20,037 nt of DNA, taken from positions 1-20,037 of IMG/VR virus record IMGVR_UViG_3300042549_001476; one strand, given 5' to 3'. The stretch is from a virus. The notes below the pieces were generated by a model that was not told the DNA's origin, did no database searches, and saw only the letters and a list, made by a program, of their open reading frames with translations. Made by a program: the position numbers and the translations under genes. Shown here piece after piece: positions 4,494-20,037 of this stretch (position 1 is its first letter; every line of letters begins with the position of its first letter).

Positions 4494-7400
4494 CTATCTG
4501 TAAGGATATTTGCTGGTTAGTTTGATGATGCGGTTACGCATCTCTTCGTCAGCTTCAACGATACCAAAGTAGGCTTCACTACGAGCTTTCATTGCATTCA
4601 TTCTAGCGTTGTAAATGGCATCAACATCTTTATCTAAATCTGGGTTCTTTCTAGCCCACTTAATCCAGTCATCAATAGCTTCTTGCATATACACTTCTTG
4701 GTCATTAAGCTGCGCAGTCTTAATACGCTTCATGATACTGTCGTAGTCTTTACGTACTTCAATCTTGTGCTTAATAACCATCTGTTGCATATCTCTACGC
4801 GTAGCAACTATAGTTGGGTTGAAACCCATACCTTTATAGATACGTTCTAGCACACCGATTTGCTCTTTGTCTACTAGTACAGCTTTATCTTTTTTGTTGG
4901 TTACACCTTCTTCTGCCCAACGTTGCTGTGCAATCATACCTTTAAGAAAAGCAGGGGAAGCTTTTTCTATAGCCTGTGATACGTTTCCATTACGCCAATC
5001 ATCATAAGCATCAGAGAAATTTTTAATCAATCCTAAACTTGGACCACCAATGTTAGTTATCAAAGCACTTAACATGCTATCAAAAGAAGAATTACTTTCT
5101 TGAGATTCTCTCCACCACATATCATTTAAAGATACTTTTGCGCCTACGTCTGCGCCTAGTAACACAGACAATGGGCCGTATAGTAGTAGTTCAGCTGTCT
5201 TATCACCAAATTTTTCTGGCATAAATATGTAGCGGAACCAGTAATCAACATCTTCTTCTTCAAAAGGTACTGGCTCATCTTCATCACGCATGAAAGACAT
5301 GATGCCTTGTATAATGCCAACAATCGCGCTATAGCCTAAGAATGCTCTAATACCACCAAACATACCTACCATGAGCAAACTGCCAAAGAACTCTGTAGCA
5401 CCTGCATCTAATTGCTTAAGTCCTTTTTCTCTACGTGTTTTAGCTTCTTGTTCAGCCTGCGCAACAAACTGAGGGTTTTGACGCATAGCATCGCGTTGAG
5501 ATGGTGGGATTGATTCCAACATCTCTTCCATAACTGTTTCTTTTGTTATGTTTTTGTAGACGCTTCTAGCACCTTTCCACATAGACAAGTAGTTGCGAAC
5601 AAAATACCCAGTAGCTTGCAACGGATACATTCTGTACTGAAACACTACTTGACCCGCAGGACCTTTAAACAAAGTAGGTCTGTTAAATCTGGTGTAGTTA
5701 AACATAGTGTCGTAAGTATTTTTTACTGACTCATCAACAGCTTGTTGGAATGCTTCACCATTAACACCCGGTGCTTTACCGTCTTTAACTGCTTTGTTAT
5801 ACGCAAGTTCAAAGGACGCCATAAACATAATTTCACGATTTAAACGCTCTGAATGATGAAATAACGCTCCTGTTAAATCCGCGGCAGTACGCGCAACTCT
5901 GCTTGTACCACTTGTAAACTTCTGTGACGGAGTTCTACTCATAGACATCAAGTCGTATGTTCTAGTAATTTCCGTAACGCCACGCTCCGCCGCTTCACTG
6001 AAAGCAGCGTTTAGCACAGGGTTGTTTCGCACGTGCTTAGAAAATCCAATAGATACAGGAGTCCAACCTACTTTATTACCACTAGCGTCAAACTTAGCAA
6101 AGGTAGTGTGGTCCCATACCTTCATGTAGGAAGCAAGCATTTTTGTTGCTTGTACTTTACCGTATCTAGCAGATAATGCGGGCCATCCGTACACCGAAAT
6201 AGCAGTCATATTAGTAATTGCAGAAGCTATCGATGTTAAGTAATACATGAATGACAACTGACCGAGACCGTTGGCAACGCGTTGACCCCACTCGTCTTCA
6301 TTCTGAGGGTGCACTTCATCTGTTACACGGCGGCGAATCTCGTCAATAAACTGACTTAATTTAGGTGCGTCAGGGTTGCCCTTTAAAGATTCATCAGCAG
6401 CATCTAAAGAGCTAAAAGCGTCAGGAGCGTACTTTAAGGATGAAAGCTGACCAGCACTTGTATATCCAGAACGCACAAAGTTTCGTAGCGCATCACCAGT
6501 AAAACCAGCGGTGCCCTTACGATGTATAAACTGCGAACGGAAACTTTGCTCAGGCATTGTGAGTAAGTACATTTGATACACAGCGTCTTTTAATGTTTCT
6601 TTATCGGGCACACCTTGCTGGCTGTCAATTGCCGCAAAGATGTCGGTTAGCATTTTGCTAGCCTCGGATGTTTTTTGACGTAAAGAACCGAGGTTGTTGC
6701 CAGACTCTAGTTCCATATCCGTACGCATTTGCTTTTCAGTACGCAAATCGCCAGCTTTTCTTAGCTCTGCCATACGAATCTGCACAAATCTGTTACGTTG
6801 ATATTCGCTCTCAAACATGTAGAACTCACGGGTTTGGCCCTTGCCAAAACTAACCCAGTATTGTCCATAACGCATTAGCGGGAAGTACACACCAATTTGT
6901 TTCTTACCTTCATAGCTAGAACGAATAGCCGACATCAATTTACCCTTAGGGGTGCTAGCATCATTAATATCGCCATCAATCTTAAGGGCAGAAATACGCT
7001 CGTCTAGAATCGCACGGTGCAAGTCAAAGATATTTTTGTAGTGACGTTTAATATCACGATAAATCTTTTGACCAGGGAACAAACCAGATTTAGGGTCGCG
7101 CTTGCCGTACTTAGATAGACCATTCCAAAGCTCGTAAGCCTGACGTATTTTGTTTTCTCGTTTAGTAATTTGACCTTCAAAAGCAGCCTGTTGGTTAGCA
7201 GCGGCCTTTTGTTTTTTCTTACGAATTTCAGCTAGTTCTTGGTCGTTATTAATAGCGTCTTCTACAGTAGGCTCTAGAGTGGGGTCTACTTCTTCAAGCG
7301 TTGTGTAGTGCATCAAACGAGCAAGTTCTTTAGCGCCTTTGTAATAATCCTTAGCAAAATCCACCCAAGGTTTAGCTTGTTCAGCTACGTGAGTTAACAT

Positions 7401-10400
7401 CTTCTGACGCATTACAGACATTTTTTCTGTAGCTCTTAGGATAGCGTCTATATTGCCACGAGTAGTTTCTGGCATTAATGACTTAGCCCAGTCCATAATT
7501 TGCGTAGTGGCAAGCACTTGCACCCAGGAACGAACTGTTTTGCTATCCATGGTGTCATAAGAAGCTACAAATATATTCTTTGCATCTTCCCATTTACGGG
7601 CTTTAATTAAGTCTCCAAGGAAACCGTCTACGTCATCAGCGGCTTCACCCCGTTGTATTTTCTGCAGTGTCCTATCTACTTTTATCTTTTTAGCCCTAGC
7701 AGCCTCTGGCAACTTAGCGGTCATCTGCTGTGCTTGTGTAAGCGGTGCTTGTAATAGACGTTCAGAAACAATAATCAAGTCCTGCATAGCAGAGTTAGTG
7801 CTCTCGTCCATACCAAAGAAAGCACGAATACCTTGAACAAAACGTGTGATACCGTTCTTTTTGTCTATTGCAGTAGGACCAATATTGCCAGTTCTACCTG
7901 GAACAATATGCAAGAACTCTTGAAATACTGGGTATGTCATACCGTAAGCAACAAACTCTTTCACGTCGTCAAACGCTTCAACTTTGCTGAACTCACTAAT
8001 CATGTCAATTAACTGAATCTGCAACGGGTCTGTAACTACGCCGTTCTTTACACCTGCTTCAAGTATACGGAAGTAAGCATAAGACTGATTCATGAGGTTA
8101 GTCATGTCAGCAACGGCTTTAGCTAGTTCTTGAGATACAGCAGTGCCAGCTTTGATAGCTGCTAGGTATTCGTTAATACGAGCAATGGTCGCACCGTGTA
8201 CAGCTTCATGCAAGAAGGTAGTGTTGTTGATACCACCGTTGCGGGCTAGATAGATTACTCTTTCTGTGCCTGATTCATAGTACAAACCGACGGCACCATC
8301 AAAAGCATCTCTACGGACTTGGTCTGGAATCTGAGAAGGGTCGTCAACAATAACAACTTTTACACCTTTTAGGAACGGCAATAGACGCTTAGCCAACAAC
8401 TTTTCAAACGCGTTACCATTACGTGCAACCCAATTTAGGGCTTGCTGGGCGTTTGTAAACTGTGTATAGCGGTTGTTATCAGTGCCGTCAGTAGAATCAG
8501 ATAAGTTAGACTGTTTAGCAGAACGTAATGCTGATTTAGCCATAGCCTTTCTAGCTTCGGCACGCTCCTTAGCAAGTGCAGTTTCTTCTTCTGGGATATT
8601 TTCTAGCGCTGCTTTAGCAGTTTTACCTGCTTTGTTATTACGATGTGCTGGGCTGTTAGCAATCTCGTATAGTGTATCAATAGCTGCACGTTGGTCATTT
8701 AGCAGTATCTGAGCCGCATCCATGGCTTCCGCATCAGTAGCGTAGTCATCAGCATTAAAGTCTTTAGACAAAATATCCGCAGCTCTTTCGGCATTACGGG
8801 TAGCATCACGGCTAGCTCCAGCCATTTGGTTCTGTTTAACTTTAGCTTCTGCTTGTTGTTCAGGGGCAGCGGGTTTACGACCTGGCTTACCTTTGATTAC
8901 TGGTGTTGTAGTAAGTGCAGCTTGAGGATTAACAGTTTGTTGTCCAAAAGCAAACCCTTGTTCATACGCTTTCTTTTCTTTACCTTTAAGGTCTGCAGAT
9001 AATTTAACACCGTCAAAACCTTGCGCCGCATCGTAAGCACCAAGTGAGTAGGCGTTTATTTGTTTTTGTACCCCTGGAGTTGGGGCACTATAAGTAAACG
9101 TACCGTCAGGGTTTTCTGTTTTAGGTGCGTTAAACACTTCTAAAGCTTGTGAGTTTGCTTTGCTTCTAATTTCCGCGGGTGTTAGTGCACTCGGCTGAGC
9201 CTGAGCTCCTCTTCCAATAGGAACAGCAGTTGTGCTATCTCCTGCCATTGTTGTTCCGACAGCTCCTGTAGTTCCAGCGGCGGTTCCTGCTGGTTGACCA
9301 GACACAGAAATGCCTGGCTGACCTGTTCCGGTGTCAGTTCTAGTAGTTCCAAGACCTGCCTCCCTTAATGTTTGGTTAGCCAACAATGTGGCACTTTCCC
9401 TGTTCATGCCTTCTGCTTCGTATTTAGCAACAAGAGTTCCAAGGGTTAATTCGGGTTCTGTTTCTTCTTTAGGAGCCCCAGTAAAGATACTAGTTACTCT
9501 ACCCTGTATTTCTTCCATAGAGTCTTTGAAGTCTTTGAAAAGATTAGATAGCGTGCTTGTAGCTTCTTTCTTATCCACAGCATCTTCGTCTTCAACCCCA
9601 AGGATAGACTCTACATATCTATCTTCAGCAGACTTCTCTTGCACCGGTGCCATAGTAAACCCAGCGGACTCAAGCATGTTGCGTGCTTGTCCTGCTTCAA
9701 AGCCCTTAACCATGTCGTCAATGGCTTTGTTTCTAGAGGCCTGTGCTACGGCGATAGGCACGTTTGCGGCTGCACCAAATGTACCACCTGCTGCTTCAGC
9801 CGCCGCAGCGTTAATTAAACGTTTGAAGTTATCTTTAGTAAGGACGTCGCCTTCTAGTTCTCCAAGGGCTTTCTCACCACCAAGTTGTAAGCCTTCTTGA
9901 GCAAAGCCTGTAGCAAACTCTTCTCCAATGGCTCTAGGTGCTTCTTTAAGCGCAGCTTTAGCAGCTTCTGTCTTAGTAAAATATTGAACGCCTGCTTTAC
10001 CTGCACGTTGACGAAGAATAGAACCTACTGGACCAGCTAAGTCCAAAACACCTACACCTAACGCAATAAGTGTATTGGCGTCCTGAGTTTTTCTAATGTA
10101 GTCTTCAATTGCATCGGCTTGTTCTTCAGGCGGTAAGTCTTTAACTTGCTTCTGAATATACTGCAAACGGTTGTTTATAGTCTCGCCCAGACCCATGGTA
10201 GTACCTAGAGCCATCGCACCAGCACCACCCGTAGTCAAGGCGGCAATCATAATAGGTGCCAACTGCACGGCACCAGAACCCATGTTGTAGCCCAACCAGT
10301 TAGTAAAGTCTCTAGCTGTTTCTATGTCTGTAAGGTCAGGAACACGACCTTTATATTTTTCTGCTTCTTTTGCGTACTCTTGAAACATACGCATTGAGTC

Positions 10401-11105
10401 TTGGATAAATTCTTTACGCTGACCAATCTGACCAATGAAGTTCTGCTTCATCTGCTCACGAACCTCAGGAGAAGCCTGTAAGTATTTCATTGCAGATTGA
10501 GAAGATAAACCAGCCTGTGATGCTTCAGCAGGGGTAGTAATCTTGCCTGCATCAATGGCGTTATACGTTTCTAGTGCGCTTTGTGCTGAACCAATTGCGC
10601 CTACATCACGAGCTAACCCTACACCTTCTTTAATAGACTTAAGACCAATAAATCCGGACGGTATGCCTTTCTCAACGAATTCTTCACCAAATGCAAATGT
10701 TTGTTCTGGGCGTGGCTTAGCAGCTTTTTCTTCGGCGGCTCTCTTTTGTTTAGCTGCTTCTAAAAGTTCTAGTGCTCCATAACCCATGTCAGCACGGGTT
10801 CGCATAGTAGCAATAGTATCTTCTAGGCTTGGACCTGTAGCAGGCTCAGCCATTTGCTCTGGTGTTAATGTAGTACCTTCTAAAACGCTACCTGTAGTTT
10901 TAGGTTTAGTAATATCAGGACCTTCACCACGCAACAACTGCTGACCAAAACTAGGCTTTTCCTCTTTAGTAGGAGCTTGAGTAGGTGCGGCTTCAGTAGT
11001 AGGGGCTTCTTGCGCTTTTAAATACGCAATGATTTTATCCCTAGCTAGATATGGGTCAGCCTCAGCGGACTCATACCTTTTACCCTGATATTCATAAACA
11101 GGCAT
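4494..11105 (-). CDS. Giant 2203-aa virion protein with metallopeptidase motif (polyvalent/internal virion protein)
   Basis: The last gene of the late operon encodes 2203 aa. It opens with a short conserved-looking unit (VYEYQGKRYES...AYLKAQ), then a charged linker. Hydrophobic Gly/Ala segments lie near residues 280-305 and 345-370 and resemble membrane-active parts of phage internal virion proteins. A zinc-peptidase motif H966-E967-A-V-H970 (FLHEAVHGAT) follows, with E1050 in VKEFVAYG as a likely third ligand. The C-terminal quarter (about 1720-1990), with LFKGPAGQVVFQYRMYPLQ and a hydrophobic stretch near 1905-1940, resembles the LPD38 domain of polyvalent proteins. Such proteins are packed in the capsid and enter the cell with the DNA; T7 gp16 and phage P1 DarB are analogues in role. 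AAGG lies 6 nt before the ATG, overlapping the previous stop. The order and role are inferred. Confidence 0.9.
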   Translation of the reverse strand: MPVYEYQGKRYESAEADPYLARDKIIAYLKAQEAPTTEAAPTQAPTKEEKPSFGQQLLRGEGPDITKPKTTGSVLEGTTLTPEQMAEPATGPSLEDTIATMRTRADMGYGALELLEAAKQKRAAEEKAAKPRPEQTFAFGEEFVEKGIPSGFIGLKSIKEGVGLARDVGAIGSAQSALETYNAIDAGKITTPAEASQAGLSSQSAMKYLQASPEVREQMKQNFIGQIGQRKEFIQDSMRMFQEYAKEAEKYKGRVPDLTDIETARDFTNWLGYNMGSGAVQLAPIMIAALTTGGAGAMALGTTMGLGETINNRLQYIQKQVKDLPPEEQADAIEDYIRKTQDANTLIALGVGVLDLAGPVGSILRQRAGKAGVQYFTKTEAAKAALKEAPRAIGEEFATGFAQEGLQLGGEKALGELEGDVLTKDNFKRLINAAAAEAAGGTFGAAANVPIAVAQASRNKAIDDMVKGFEAGQARNMLESAGFTMAPVQEKSAEDRYVESILGVEDEDAVDKKEATSTLSNLFKDFKDSMEEIQGRVTSIFTGAPKEETEPELTLGTLVAKYEAEGMNRESATLLANQTLREAGLGTTRTDTGTGQPGISVSGQPAGTAAGTTGAVGTTMAGDSTTAVPIGRGAQAQPSALTPAEIRSKANSQALEVFNAPKTENPDGTFTYSAPTPGVQKQINAYSLGAYDAAQGFDGVKLSADLKGKEKKAYEQGFAFGQQTVNPQAALTTTPVIKGKPGRKPAAPEQQAEAKVKQNQMAGASRDATRNAERAADILSKDFNADDYATDAEAMDAAQILLNDQRAAIDTLYEIANSPAHRNNKAGKTAKAALENIPEEETALAKERAEARKAMAKSALRSAKQSNLSDSTDGTDNNRYTQFTNAQQALNWVARNGNAFEKLLAKRLLPFLKGVKVVIVDDPSQIPDQVRRDAFDGAVGLYYESGTERVIYLARNGGINNTTFLHEAVHGATIARINEYLAAIKAGTAVSQELAKAVADMTNLMNQSYAYFRILEAGVKNGVVTDPLQIQLIDMISEFSKVEAFDDVKEFVAYGMTYPVFQEFLHIVPGRTGNIGPTAIDKKNGITRFVQGIRAFFGMDESTNSAMQDLIIVSERLLQAPLTQAQQMTAKLPEAARAKKIKVDRTLQKIQRGEAADDVDGFLGDLIKARKWEDAKNIFVASYDTMDSKTVRSWVQVLATTQIMDWAKSLMPETTRGNIDAILRATEKMSVMRQKMLTHVAEQAKPWVDFAKDYYKGAKELARLMHYTTLEEVDPTLEPTVEDAINNDQELAEIRKKKQKAAANQQAAFEGQITKRENKIRQAYELWNGLSKYGKRDPKSGLFPGQKIYRDIKRHYKNIFDLHRAILDERISALKIDGDINDASTPKGKLMSAIRSSYEGKKQIGVYFPLMRYGQYWVSFGKGQTREFYMFESEYQRNRFVQIRMAELRKAGDLRTEKQMRTDMELESGNNLGSLRQKTSEASKMLTDIFAAIDSQQGVPDKETLKDAVYQMYLLTMPEQSFRSQFIHRKGTAGFTGDALRNFVRSGYTSAGQLSSLKYAPDAFSSLDAADESLKGNPDAPKLSQFIDEIRRRVTDEVHPQNEDEWGQRVANGLGQLSFMYYLTSIASAITNMTAISVYGWPALSARYGKVQATKMLASYMKVWDHTTFAKFDASGNKVGWTPVSIGFSKHVRNNPVLNAAFSEAAERGVTEITRTYDLMSMSRTPSQKFTSGTSRVARTAADLTGALFHHSERLNREIMFMASFELAYNKAVKDGKAPGVNGEAFQQAVDESVKNTYDTMFNYTRFNRPTLFKGPAGQVVFQYRMYPLQATGYFVRNYLSMWKGARSVYKNITKETVMEEMLESIPPSQRDAMRQNPQFVAQAEQEAKTRREKGLKQLDAGATEFFGSLLMVGMFGGIRAFLGYSAIVGIIQGIMSFMRDEDEPVPFEEEDVDYWFRYIFMPEKFGDKTAELLLYGPLSVLLGADVGAKVSLNDMWWRESQESNSSFDSMLSALITNIGGPSLGLIKNFSDAYDDWRNGNVSQAIEKASPAFLKGMIAQQRWAEEGVTNKKDKAVLVDKEQIGVLERIYKGMGFNPTIVATRRDMQQMVIKHKIEVRKDYDSIMKRIKTAQLNDQEVYMQEAIDDWIKWARKNPDLDKDVDAIYNARMNAMKARSEAYFGIVEADEEMRNRIIKLTSKYPYR

Positions 11106-17589: not shown

Positions 17590-17600
17590 GGTTTACCTTA
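17585..17600 (-). promoter_or_regulatory. Stop-SD-start junction of the tail hub gene
   Basis: Read on the minus strand: TAAGGTAAACCATGCC. TAA is the endolysin stop, AAGG the ribosome binding site, ATG the tail hub start. It matches the junction at 11101-11116 in 15 of 16 bases. Confidence 0.7.
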
Positions 17601-18029
17601 AACAAATGGGCGGGTGCCTGCACGGTCTATAATAAGCGTTTGTCCTCTTGGTGTCGAGCCTTCTTCGTTGGGAATGCTAATGTGGGTCCATGAGTCAAAC
17701 TCGCGAATTAATTGGTCAAATGGCAGTCTAGCTTCAATAATGGCTCGGCAAACTTGGTCAGGATTCATACCTGGAATACGAATATCAGCTGCACAGCCAA
17801 CCATATGCTGACTAGACTTAGACCCACCAACGTGCGCATTTACTGCTGGACCACGATAAGCGGAGTTAATCATTACAGGTTTACCACCAAGAGCAGCTTT
17901 AACTGTTTCCAAGAACTCAGCCAATCGTTGTAAATTAGCCAATGCTGTAGCATCAGGAGTGTTGTCCAAGTTATTACGTTCAGCGGTCTCGCTGGCAGTT
18001 AGTTCAGCTAGTGTGAAATTGGGTGTCAT
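17598..18029 (-). CDS. Endolysin, M15-family zinc peptidase
   Basis: 143 aa, a complete single-domain peptidase. It starts with FTLAELTASETA, a common entry of the M15_3 family, and carries SAYRGPAVNAHVGGSKSSQH75MVGCAAD82IRI and EFDSWTH116ISI. H75, D82 and H116 are the expected zinc ligands, and E110 is a likely catalytic residue. Family members cut peptide cross-links of peptidoglycan (D-Ala-D-Ala carboxypeptidase or L-Ala-D-Glu peptidase type); the exact bond cannot be told. No signal peptide is present, so release would depend on the holin encoded just upstream. Its ATG overlaps the holin stop (ATGA), as expected for a lysis cassette. Confidence 0.93.
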   Translation of the reverse strand: MTPNFTLAELTASETAERNNLDNTPDATALANLQRLAEFLETVKAALGGKPVMINSAYRGPAVNAHVGGSKSSQHMVGCAADIRIPGMNPDQVCRAIIEARLPFDQLIREFDSWTHISIPNEEGSTPRGQTLIIDRAGTRPFV

Positions 18030-18430
18030 TTTTTATCCTTTGATTTCATATCCATGATTTTCTCAAGAGTACGACCCCCAAAGTAAAACGACATGATAAG
18101 CATACCCCATTGACCTAATAGTTCAACATACGGCTGATGGACATTAAGTTCAAATGCACTACCAATACCAAAAATTGTATATACAAAAAGAATAAATATA
18201 AGTGTTCCTGGTCTGATGTTTTTAGATAGCCAGCTATCACTAGCCATATCAGCTTCATGGCGTTTGGTCAGTTCTTGGTTTTCAATATTGTCGGCATTAA
18301 GTTCAGCTAGGCGCCCTTCTTGTTGCATTTGCAATAACTCTTTTTGGGCTTTTGCTTTGGCTTCAGGGTCAGGAATAAACTTGTCAAGCACTTTCATGCC
18401 AACGTCTAGTAGGGCTGCAATAGGTAGCAT
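18026..18430 (-). CDS. Holin, GTA-type 3TM family
   Basis: 134 aa. An N-terminal hydrophobic/amphipathic helix (1-19), a charged region DPEAKAKAQKELLQMQQE (21-38), then DSWLSKNIRPGTL before a membrane segment (about 75-95) and a second one (about 103-119), with a basic Lys-rich C-terminus. This layout and the 'SWLSKxxRP' motif are those of the holin family described in gene transfer agents and many phages. It opens the inner membrane to the endolysin at the end of infection. AGGA lies 9 nt upstream of the ATG, one base after the previous stop. Number of true membrane passes (two or three) is uncertain. Confidence 0.88.
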   Translation of the reverse strand: MLPIAALLDVGMKVLDKFIPDPEAKAKAQKELLQMQQEGRLAELNADNIENQELTKRHEADMASDSWLSKNIRPGTLIFILFVYTIFGIGSAFELNVHQPYVELLGQWGMLIMSFYFGGRTLEKIMDMKSKDKK

Positions 18431-18431
18431 A

Positions 18432-18884
18432 TTAGTTTCCTAATCGGTTAGTTGTTGCGCGTTTTAATGTATTCATCTCAGAGCGTAGTGTAGAACTTGT
18501 CACATCTAGCTCAACTTTTTGTGCAGCCATGCCAGAACGTAGTTCTTTCTGTGTGCTTTCTGCAACAATCTTAGCTTCACGAGCAGCCATCAATGCCTCG
18601 GCTAAACGCTCTTGCATCTTAGCAATGACCTCACGCTGGTCTGCTACCTTCTCTTCTAGTATCTTAACCTTGCGCTCTGCGGCTGATGCTGATGAGGCAG
18701 TGTCGCTGTAGCCTTCATACATCTCTTTGACTTCGTTAAACTTGGTAATGCCTGTATAGCCAGCACCTAAAATAGCAGGTACACCAGCAATAATAAAGCC
18801 AGCCACCATTGTGTTCTGCTTGGCCCAAGTCACCCACTTATCTACGAAGCCTTGCACCTTGTCTAGTTTCTCTAAGTCACTCAT
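18432..18884 (-). CDS. Membrane-anchored coiled-coil protein, possible i-spanin
   Basis: 150 aa. One membrane segment at about 26-46 (MVAGFIIAGVPAILGAGYTGI) is followed by a long coiled coil (about 67-145) rich in Ala, Glu, Lys and Arg. A single N-terminal TM followed by a coiled coil, located directly before holin and endolysin, matches the general plan of an inner-membrane spanin (Rz-like). Its ATG overlaps the stop of the secreted Cys-repeat protein gene (ATGA). No lipoprotein o-spanin with a canonical lipobox is seen. Alternatives: a holin regulator or membrane-bound structural protein. Confidence 0.85.
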   Translation of the reverse strand: MSDLEKLDKVQGFVDKWVTWAKQNTMVAGFIIAGVPAILGAGYTGITKFNEVKEMYEGYSDTASSASAAERKVKILEEKVADQREVIAKMQERLAEALMAAREAKIVAESTQKELRSGMAAQKVELDVTSSTLRSEMNTLKRATTNRLGN

Positions 18885-19861
18885 TGCTCAAATCCTAAGT
18901 CTTGGTTGTAAGCAGGCTGGTTAAAGCCCTTTTGTTGCAACAGGTCCATCATTATTGAGTCCTGCATCAGTATGTTGTTTGGTATCCCACCCACTAGCTG
19001 TGGTTCGGAGAATACGTTCGGTTGCTGTAGTCCAGGTTTCACAAATAGCTCCAACGACAACACAAGGCCAACCACCGACTGCGTCTTTCCCTTTGGGGGT
19101 GGGGATTGGGATGCCTGTGTAGTCGATGTTGTCTGCGAATCCGTCTTTGTCTGTGTCTGGGTCTCTGTACTGGCGGTCGGGGTCGTTTCCGAGTTCGGCA
19201 CAGTATTTTGGGTCGGTGCAGTTACAGGTGAGGATTGGATTGTTGGGGCAGATATGGTCGAAGTTGGACTCGTTGGACTTGCTGGGTTCACAGGCGAAAC
19301 AGGGTTGGTCGGGTTGCTTACCGATTTCTTGCAAGTGTCTGATGTAGTCACCCAAGGTTGCCACACTGGACTTCCATACGGATTCGGACACGTCGAGGAA
19401 CGAGTCTGGGTAATGCTCCCCGTATAGCCTGTCTGGCAGCTGAGCGTTTGTTGTTGGCTGCTTACTTGACATGTTGGTGGGTTTTGGACGCAGGAGTCTT
19501 GGATTTTGAACCAGTCGGTTTGGACTGGCTGACCATAGCTACCTGTCGGGCAGTTGGTTTCTTTTTTCCAGGTTTGCGTGCCGCTGAAGTTGACGGGGCA
19601 ATTTCTTGTTTCGGTTTGCGCTGAGTAGGTGCAGGTGACGACTTGCGGGGGCGGGTTTGCTTGGGGGCAGCTTGGGGAGATGCCTGGGAACGCTTGGCAC
19701 GCAATGGCTTGGCACTGGGCGAGGGTTGTTCCACCGTCAACGAAGAGGGAGCTGTAGACTGGCGCCCCATTAGACCACGTACTAGCATAACAAGCCGCTT
19801 GAACATTATTGCTCCTTAGAATCAGTAGACTTAAGCTCAACAAGAGGAGGAACCGAACCAT
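18881..19861 (-). CDS. Secreted Cys-repeat, Thr/Pro/Ser-rich protein (TspB/adhesin-like)
   Basis: From the ATG at 19861 the product is 326 aa. It begins with a clear signal peptide (MVRFLLLLSLSLLIL...NNVQA) with a probable cut before ACYAS. Two repeats of about 45 residues follow, each with four Cys: C77-x10-C88-x15-C104-x19-C124, and C131-x10-C142-x15-C158-x18-C177. The second reads CQVSSQQQTLSCQTGYTGS... and ITQTRSSTCP. They recall Cys-rich repeats of filamentous-phage TspB/minor coat-type proteins. A Thr/Pro/Ser/Gln linker (about 185-260) leads to a partly hydrophobic tail (SVVGLVLSLELF...DLLQQKGFNQPAYN). The open frame extends to 19930, but only the Met at 19861 gives a signal peptide. 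Its ribosome binding site is weak. It overlaps the upstream gene by 56 nt and couples to the next gene by ATGA. Role unknown; lysis (outer spanin-like) or adhesion are possibilities. Confidence 0.75.
   Translation of the reverse strand: MVRFLLLLSLSLLILRSNNVQAACYASTWSNGAPVYSSLFVDGGTTLAQCQAIACQAFPGISPSCPQANPPPQVVTCTYSAQTETRNCPVNFSGTQTWKKETNCPTGSYGQPVQTDWFKIQDSCVQNPPTCQVSSQQQTLSCQTGYTGSITQTRSSTCPNPYGSPVWQPWVTTSDTCKKSVSNPTNPVSPVNPASPTSPTSTISAPTIQSSPVTAPTQNTVPNSETTPTASTETQTQTKTDSQTTSTTQASQSPPPKGKTQSVVGLVLSLELFVKPGLQQPNVFSEPQLVGGIPNNILMQDSIMMDLLQQKGFNQPAYNQDLGFEQ
18921..19472 (-). CDS. Alternative-frame ORF nested in the secreted protein gene (doubtful)
   Basis: An open frame of 183 codons lies wholly inside the secreted protein gene, one base off (-1). 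It has Cys-rich stretches (QPCFACEPSK, CPNNPILTCNCTDPKYC) and an Asp motif DPDTDKDGFADNID, which looks like a calcium-binding type 3 repeat. But TQTQTKTD in the main frame converts mechanically to such Asp-rich text, and a Thr/Pro/Ser-rich main frame rarely yields stops in this frame. The start ATG has no Shine-Dalgarno, though it overlaps the end of the preceding nested frame by 11 nt. Third positions are unusually C-rich. Translation is possible but unproven. Confidence 0.2.
   Translation of the reverse strand: MSSKQPTTNAQLPDRLYGEHYPDSFLDVSESVWKSSVATLGDYIRHLQEIGKQPDQPCFACEPSKSNESNFDHICPNNPILTCNCTDPKYCAELGNDPDRQYRDPDTDKDGFADNIDYTGIPIPTPKGKDAVGGWPCVVVGAICETWTTATERILRTTASGWDTKQHTDAGLNNDGPVATKGL
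19462..19806 (-). CDS. Alternative-frame ORF with strong start signals, basic Lys/Pro/Ser-rich (doubtful)
   Basis: An open frame of 114 codons, in a third frame relative to the secreted protein and the 183-codon ORF. It has the best start in this stretch: AAGGAG 5 nt before an ATG that overlaps the TAA of the upstream gene (TAATG). The product would be short and strongly basic (MFKRLVMLVRG, then Ser/Pro/Ala/Lys/Arg runs), with no domain I recognise. It may be an artefact of reading the Cys/Thr-rich gene in another frame, or a small nested gene like Rz1 within Rz. Confidence is low on coding, higher on the start signal being real. Confidence 0.3.
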   Translation of the reverse strand: MFKRLVMLVRGLMGRQSTAPSSLTVEQPSPSAKPLRAKRSQASPQAAPKQTRPRKSSPAPTQRKPKQEIAPSTSAARKPGKKKPTARQVAMVSQSKPTGSKSKTPASKTHQHVK

Positions 19862-20037
19862 ATAATTTCTTAAACTTTTCAGGGTAGCGTTTAATCCACT
19901 CGTTACGTGCAGCATCACCAACGAGACCATCTATCGGGCAAGGCGTGCCTGACATCATCATGGCATCCCAGTTTTCTTCACGAGCTGAACAAGCAATAGC
20001 AACCGCAGCTACTTTAAGACCATTGTTAGATAAGAAT
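19806..20037 (-). CDS. C-terminal end of a conserved phage protein (5' part beyond the window)
   Basis: The minus-strand frame entering from the right edge is open for 76 codons and ends in TAA at 19808-19806. Visible text includes SAREENWDAMMMSGTPCP and AARNEWIKRYPEKFKKLYG, then VPPLVELKSTDSKEQ. It looks like a small conserved phage protein in the late operon just upstream of the lysis genes, but I do not recognise a function. The end of this gene overlaps the start of the secreted protein gene (19861) by 56 nt in another frame. Confidence 0.75.
   Translation of the reverse strand, partial: FLSNNGLKVAAVAIACSAREENWDAMMMSGTPCPIDGLVGDAARNEWIKRYPEKFKKLYGSVPPLVELKSTDSKEQ
19812..19817 (-). promoter_or_regulatory. 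Near-ideal Shine-Dalgarno before the TAATG junction
   Basis: AAGGAG on the minus strand, 5 nt before ATG 19806 and inside the last codons (Lys-Glu) of the upstream gene. It supports initiation at 19806 in the frame of the 114-codon ORF, not in the frame of the secreted protein whose signal peptide is encoded across it. Confidence 0.6.

Follow-up and report, generated by a model that had tools for sequence, protein, structure and literature searches.

The window analysed here, that is the whole stretch of DNA under study, is a 20,037-base IMG/VR virus record in which the genes of interest lie on the minus strand in the order gene X (its 3' part, cut by the window end), a secreted-protein gene hereafter abbreviated as sec, a 150-aa gene, a three-transmembrane holin and an M15 endolysin. 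Two further frames, hereafter called 114 and 183 after their length in codons, lie within sec in its +1 and +2 frames, respectively. The features are the following.

19806..20036, minus strand: gene X, 3' part, truncated where the window ends; an exported late protein that contains Cys
18881..19861, minus strand: sec, 326 aa; start ATG at 19861 conserved among homologues, dNN/dSN of 0.3-0.4, homologue in phage MW202481
19796..19861, minus strand: signal peptide of sec, MVRFLLLLSLSLLILRSNNVQA, sharing its DNA with the gene X 3' end; recognised by eye, hydrophobic in all homologues
19812..19817, minus strand: Shine-Dalgarno-like AAGGAG ahead of the 114 ATG, read from the sequence
19322..19792, minus strand: folded Cys-rich beta-repeat part of sec, residues 24-180; AlphaFold2 model and invariant cysteines
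19462..19806, minus strand: 114, +1 frame, 114 codons, predicted product basic and rich in K/R/P/S/A; start overlapping the gene X stop, frame open across homologues
19462..19472, minus strand: stop/start overlap of 114 and 183, 11 nt, ATGTCAAGTAA; the 183 ATG is without Shine-Dalgarno
18921..19472, minus strand: predicted gene 183, +2 frame, 183 codons, product Cys-rich and acidic, without signal peptide; evidence from selection, composition and motif
18884..19306, minus strand: Thr/Pro/Ser/Gln linker, disordered, with the C-terminal segment of sec, residues 186-326; pLDDT 30-44; most of 183, Cys core included, lies over it
19200..19256, minus strand: conserved Cys core of the 183 product, HICPNNPILTCNCTDPKYC; residues invariant in homologues
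19122..19157, minus strand: acidic stretch of 183, DTDKDGFADNID; in homologues elsewhere a second Cys cluster stands just ahead of it
18432..18884, minus strand: i-spanin-like gene, 150 aa, assigned by eye from an N-terminal membrane helix and a coiled coil
18026..18430, minus strand: three-transmembrane holin; PF11351, phrog_3427
17598..18029, minus strand: M15 peptidase endolysin; PF08291, phrog_894

The ORF containing sec spans 18881-19930 and its conserved internal start is that at 19861, preceded by a weak Shine-Dalgarno. The initial annotation had given the coordinates of sec, 114 and 183 correctly, and its description of 114 as having a near-perfect Shine-Dalgarno and stop-start coupling is borne out by the AAGGAG motif and by TAATG, in which the TAA of gene X overlaps the 114 ATG by one nucleotide; the 11-nt overlap of 114 with 183 and the DxDxDG-like text of the latter are likewise present. 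Its statement that all three minus-strand frames are open over much of 0.9 kb has to be narrowed, since mostly two are open, sec and one other, and all three only for about 75-80 nt around 19462-19538, where the open 183 frame extends ahead of its ATG, and again over the gene X tail, of which the final ~18 codons are common to the signal-peptide region of sec. At the other end, an ATGA overlap joins the sec stop to the i-spanin-like gene. Elsewhere in the window, positions 4494-11105 encode a protein of 2203 aa that matches families of giant phage proteins, DarB-like antirestriction among them.

Same-strand, out-of-frame nesting in a late gene that neighbours holin and endolysin recalls the embedded spanins, including lambda Rz/Rz1 (Kongari et al. 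2018, PMC6139136), a parallel that the initial annotation had implied. Under this interpretation a nested frame would encode the outer-membrane lipoprotein partner of the 150-aa protein, for which the +1 nesting and the membrane helix and coiled coil seen by eye would be suitable. However, a lipobox of the form [LVI][ASTVI][GAS]C was found neither in sec, where the sites read QAAC in the window and QANC, AQSC and SNYC in homologues, nor in 114 or 183, which also carry no export signal; moreover, the nested frames sit within sec and not within the separate gene that is likely to encode an inner-membrane spanin-like protein. Other differences from Rz/Rz1 are that nested and host genes do not form an i-spanin/o-spanin pair, that two successive nested ORFs span nearly the whole host gene and that the product of 183 has a Cys core. 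The parallel does not hold in these respects, and an Rz/Rz1-type arrangement appears most improbable. The i-spanin-like gene stays beside sec in the other lineages checked, and family searches with its product gave no significant match.

The host gene sec is real, as indicated by its signal peptide, its folded Cys-rich repeats and the homologue in MW202481, which is 32% identical. Its AlphaFold2 model reaches a pLDDT of about 90 or higher over residues 80-180 and is disordered from residue 186 on. A Foldseek search with this model gave chance-level hits only (none with E <0.001), and neither Pfam nor PHROGs gave a significant match to sec, nor did a PDB sequence search with its profile. Close relatives (L003, L006, L018 and others) have gained or lost whole Cys-rich repeat units in sec, each change being a multiple of three bases.

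When IMG/VR was scanned for sec and for the 183 product, and the deposited phage MW202481 was added, the set came to 70 distinct sec genes, of which one is that of the window and 69 are further homologues, mostly from IMG/VR contigs; the locus belongs to a family of uncultured aquatic phages. In nearly all of these homologues the +1 frame opens at the gene X stop and contains no stop for 76-230 codons, and the +2 frame usually succeeds it near its end and runs close to the sec stop; where a stop interrupts the +2 tile, the frame is usually open again within some 1-45 codons. The same layout is found in divergent lineages with sec identity down to 31-45%. Within the window's clade every insertion or deletion preserves the frame, and in most members the 114/183 overlap is exactly 11 nt and the 183 stop lies exactly 40 nt ahead of the sec stop. 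Among the loci with the Cys core of 183, the 114 stop is offset by -8 from the 183 ATG in 24 of 55 and lies between -35 and +40 nt of it in 50 of 55.

The results of our analysis strongly support 183 as a real gene, having its own start, its own stop and a conserved protein motif. The initial annotation had left nested genes and low complexity of sec side by side as explanations of the open frames. If Thr, Pro, Gln and Cys codons of sec, which seldom yield stops in other frames, were all that mattered, both ORFs would be by-products; yet when the window's sec is shuffled synonymously, the stretch of 183 should contain 5.5 stops (P of none 0.0007), and under the codon usage of the phage itself 13.4. 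The signal grows much stronger when homologues are included; in the window's clade and its near relatives 4-8 stops are expected in shuffles and 9-20 under own codon usage, with none over 126-213 codons (P 0.000-0.006 in the shuffles). The product is also enriched in Cys (8 vs 2.9+-1.4 in synonymous shuffles) and in acidic residues (27 D/E vs 17.7+-2.9), both excesses recurring in relatives, and the codon-position pattern over 183 is reversed.

Substitution patterns point in the same direction. The dNN/dNS values reported here come from our own implementation of the dNN/dNS idea and not from a published program; for the frame of 183 the ratio is 0.59-0.65 (0.65 [0.48-0.88] in 15 close loci), vs control values of 2.1-3.2 when four neighbouring genes are read with the same shift. 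Over 183, changes nonsynonymous in both frames are rarer in the 15 close loci than those silent in 183, and dSN/dSS is 0.29. Synonymous variation is lowered in the overlap, with dSN of 0.32-0.39 as compared with 0.54-0.69 in two neighbours across the same 15 loci. By clade the ratio is 0.40 in L72 and 0.66 in L129, and it is 1.53, a control-like value, in the L29 clade, which has no recognisable 183 and shows no drop in synonymous rate; pooling the data gives 0.88, several small clades lying near 1. These comparisons were the checks suggested in the initial annotation: because homologues are without stops in the 114 and 183 frames and synonymous variation is reduced, nested coding is supported, strongly for 183 and moderately for 114.

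Conservation between clades exceeds that of sec precisely where the Cys core lies. The Cys core, which overlies the disordered part of sec, is more similar between clades in 183 than in sec (0.76 vs 0.47 in one comparison and 0.65 vs 0.40 in another), so that it is kept where the overlapping linker is not; in the N-terminal part of 183, over the last repeat of sec, it is sec that is more alike. The core pattern occurs in 55 of 65 divergent homologues, and the family is kept across phages in which the host gene is <40-50% identical. The start codon tells a similar story: at every examined locus of the window's clade and of the L26, L72 and L28 clades, the 183 ATG is built on an A-ending Thr or Ser codon at a PP[TS]C site, vs 45 of 681 (6.6%) A-ending codons at the other [TSPA]C dipeptides of these genes, and lineages that do not have 183 show ACG or ACC at this site. 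Low complexity alone is thus refuted for 183. It does account for the basic composition of the 114 product, which equals the shuffle mean, and the openness of 114 in the single sequence is not rare (P 0.04); the combined p value for 114 discussed below, with its flat control, stands against it there as well, and as an account of both frames it is very unlikely.

We have also considered the GC content at third codon positions, which is 0.54-0.58 in sec, 0.27-0.33 in the other late genes of the window and 0.42 in the spanin-like gene. Its use as proof of overlap is weakened by low-GC3 lineages that keep 183; the high value of sec (0.56 vs 0.32) may reflect overlap constraint or, in part, transfer from a phage of higher GC, given that L026 retains 183 at a GC3 of 0.32.

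The conserved region of the 183 product has the form HxCxxxPxxxCNC...CA, of the H-C...C-x-C...C type. In 32 homologues of 183, C75, N77, C83 and C85 are invariant, with C91 and H73 nearly so; in 22 distant homologues C89 and C91 (A7 numbering) are invariant, A7 itself having C81, C89, C91 and C96 as well as a second cluster. This second cluster, CPx5-7Cx4Cx2-3C, is found in 34 homologues of 183, and close relatives differ in whether they have it, the change being in each case a multiple of three bases. The 183 products contain peptide sequences such as HICPNNPILTCNCTDPK and YCAELGNDPDR. A reading of the DxDxDG text as an EF-hand or TSP3-like calcium-binding loop of the form DxDxDGxxDxxD was rejected, as the first two Asp are not kept (PAKDGFSDN, AEQDGFSDN), L026, L129 and other homologues do not have the loop, and Pfam gave no match. 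The invariant Cys/His set is what is expected of a zinc-binding Cys protein, and we tentatively suggest that 183 may be a small cytoplasmic late protein with one or two zinc-binding Cys clusters; the AlphaFold model of 183 (pLDDT 46) gives no fold and is too poor for an assessment of metal-site geometry.

Searches with 183 and its distant homologues gave no significant match in Pfam or PHROGs, and a PDB sequence search with the 183 profile gave none. Genome contigs gave one weak repeat match, in a MAG. The 183 gene was absent from the deposited phages searched, and viral contigs searched with a narrower 183 alignment gave 11 loci. In the databases searched, the 183 product thus seems to occur only in overlapped form and to be annotated in no collection, the family being invisible there because it lies under another gene.

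For 114 the evidence is of a different kind. Shuffles of the window's sec lead to 2.3 expected stops in the 114 stretch, with the P of 0.04 quoted above, and own codon usage to 2.4; single-genome P values range from 0.0005 to 0.47, none of them decisive. Combined by Fisher's method over 20 lineages <55% identical, and assuming that the lineages are independent, openness has a p of about 4e-13, as against 0.99 when the other frame is followed from that start, which indicates that the frame is kept open beyond chance. Its dNN/dNS is 0.63 [0.46-0.83] in the window's clade, the only clade below 1, and 0.95 [0.85-1.06] when pooled, vs 0.80-1.06 in controls. Neither Pfam nor PHROGs gave a significant match to its product. 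The proposal that 114 is selected to be basic, as a histone- or disruptin-like protein would be, is unsupported, with a net charge of 24 vs a shuffle mean of 25.3. The exact AAGGAG motif varies in homologues and the stop-start coupling with gene X is kept. Because openness exceeds chance but pooled dNN/dNS and charge are control-like, we regard 114 as quite likely to be translated; it may encode a basic protein that evolves fast or serve chiefly as a conduit bringing ribosomes to 183.

The conduit alternative, in which 183 is real and 114 is merely translated, or untranslated, with only its openness and stop position mattering for ribosome delivery, has somewhat less than an even chance. It is consistent with the lack of amino-acid-level constraint on 114 outside the window's clade, with the drift of its product from K/P-rich to hydrophobic composition among homologues and with the tie between its stop and a 183 ATG that is without Shine-Dalgarno, given that bacterial reinitiation requires overlaps or very short distances (PMC10666635, PMC6728339). 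Against it stand the low dNN/dNS of 114 in the window's clade and the presence of a long, open +1 frame (P 0.001-0.016) in L029, L032, L145, L148 and MW202481, all of which have no recognisable 183.

In L029 (3774-4205), L145 and L148 a long +2 frame of 144-193 codons nevertheless follows a stop. It does not contain the conserved motif and its dNN/dNS is control-like; it may be a decayed gene, a different gene or a product of chance. An earlier supposition that 183 is young and absent from all outgroups was dropped when a wider search found it in the majority of distant lineages. On a tree of gene X, in which the long rows L068, L128 and L145 were misread, the lineages without 183 need three changes, gain vs loss being not settled.

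It could also be argued that the chain of 114 and 183 is ancestral and sec an overprinted newcomer, in line with the better Shine-Dalgarno of the 114 start in the window. We regard this as improbable, since the fold, cysteines and signal peptide of sec are retained in lineages without recognisable 183, and an exported protein occupies the same position in Pelagibacter and Roseobacter phages. There, gene X homologues are followed by the exported protein and then by a membrane-helix/coiled-coil gene ending in NPLG or NRLG. The Pelagibacter phages HTVC202P and HTVC115P and one Roseobacter phage have this trio; because it stands together in both groups the host module is widespread, and it may constitute an uncharacterised envelope or lysis module. 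The overlap with 183 is seen in the uncultured group only. Gene X itself (19806-20036; L034, L035, L036, L037) has a conserved SGTPCPxxGxIGDAA and is exported, a full-length homologue with signal peptide being present in L003. In the latter contig, a fatty-acid-desaturase-like gene (1607-2392; histidine boxes HRLLSHGSY, HRLHH and HNNHH, identified by eye) lies between tail genes and gene X and is possibly an auxiliary metabolic gene.

The best overall explanation, to which we give a probability of about 0.85, is a dual-coding locus in which sec would be overlaid by a translation relay running from the gene X tail through 114 to 183. The evolution of the sequences shows protein-level constraint on sec and 183, a stop-free 114 and the maintenance of start and stop positions along the relay. 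The exported, disulfide-type sec is encoded along the whole stretch, the gene X tail overlying its signal peptide, 114 its folded part and 183 its last repeat and disordered linker, with the 114/183 relay presumably superimposed on the older sec gene. Ribosomes ending gene X would restart at the overlapping 114 ATG, and those ending 114 would restart at the 183 ATG without a Shine-Dalgarno, both starts overlapping or lying very near the upstream stop (TAATG for 114; the -35 to +40 nt range for 183). Sec would be initiated independently, inside gene X, and then exported, and it might act with gene X and the spanin-like protein in the periplasm, in lysis or envelope disruption, a role that we propose with low confidence. 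The fuller version, in which the sec coding sequence is shared entirely with three genes of a coupled relay, 183 being a widespread Cys-cluster family known only in overprinted form and 114 a functional third product, has about even odds.

Long overlaps in tailed phages are thought to be rare and are discarded by gene callers. In overlapping genes generally, the usual division of labour places the conserved core of one product over a disordered region of the other. Overlaps in tailed dsDNA phages usually measure a few nucleotides (PMC8903798). The locus resembles overprinted viral genes (PMC8227390) in that the disordered part of an older protein is overlain by the conserved part of a gene in another frame, but differs in being that of a tailed dsDNA phage of about 60 kb and in its retention across very divergent phages. 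The coupling seen in TAATG between gene X and 114, in the short 114/183 overlaps and in ATGA between sec and the next gene resembles termination-reinitiation coupling (PMC6728339, PMC10666635), with the difference that a third gene encloses the two coupled ORFs and that coupling is here read from sequence. The deposited phage MW202481 (Podoviridae sp. ctXG6705) has a sec homologue (UOF77515) after a gene X homologue and an open +1 frame of 112 codons; it differs in having no 183 gene, and its sec homologue is 32-37% identical and annotated 'transport protein tonB'. In the literature searched we found no description of the 183/sec overlap.

The secreted late gene thus appears to contain a conserved, unannotated overlapping gene, 183, and probably a second one, 114. 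With lineages that have or have not 183, and that have or have not its second Cys cluster, the locus constitutes a natural comparative series, which bears on how overlapping genes divide constraint, the core of one product being placed over the disordered linker of the other.
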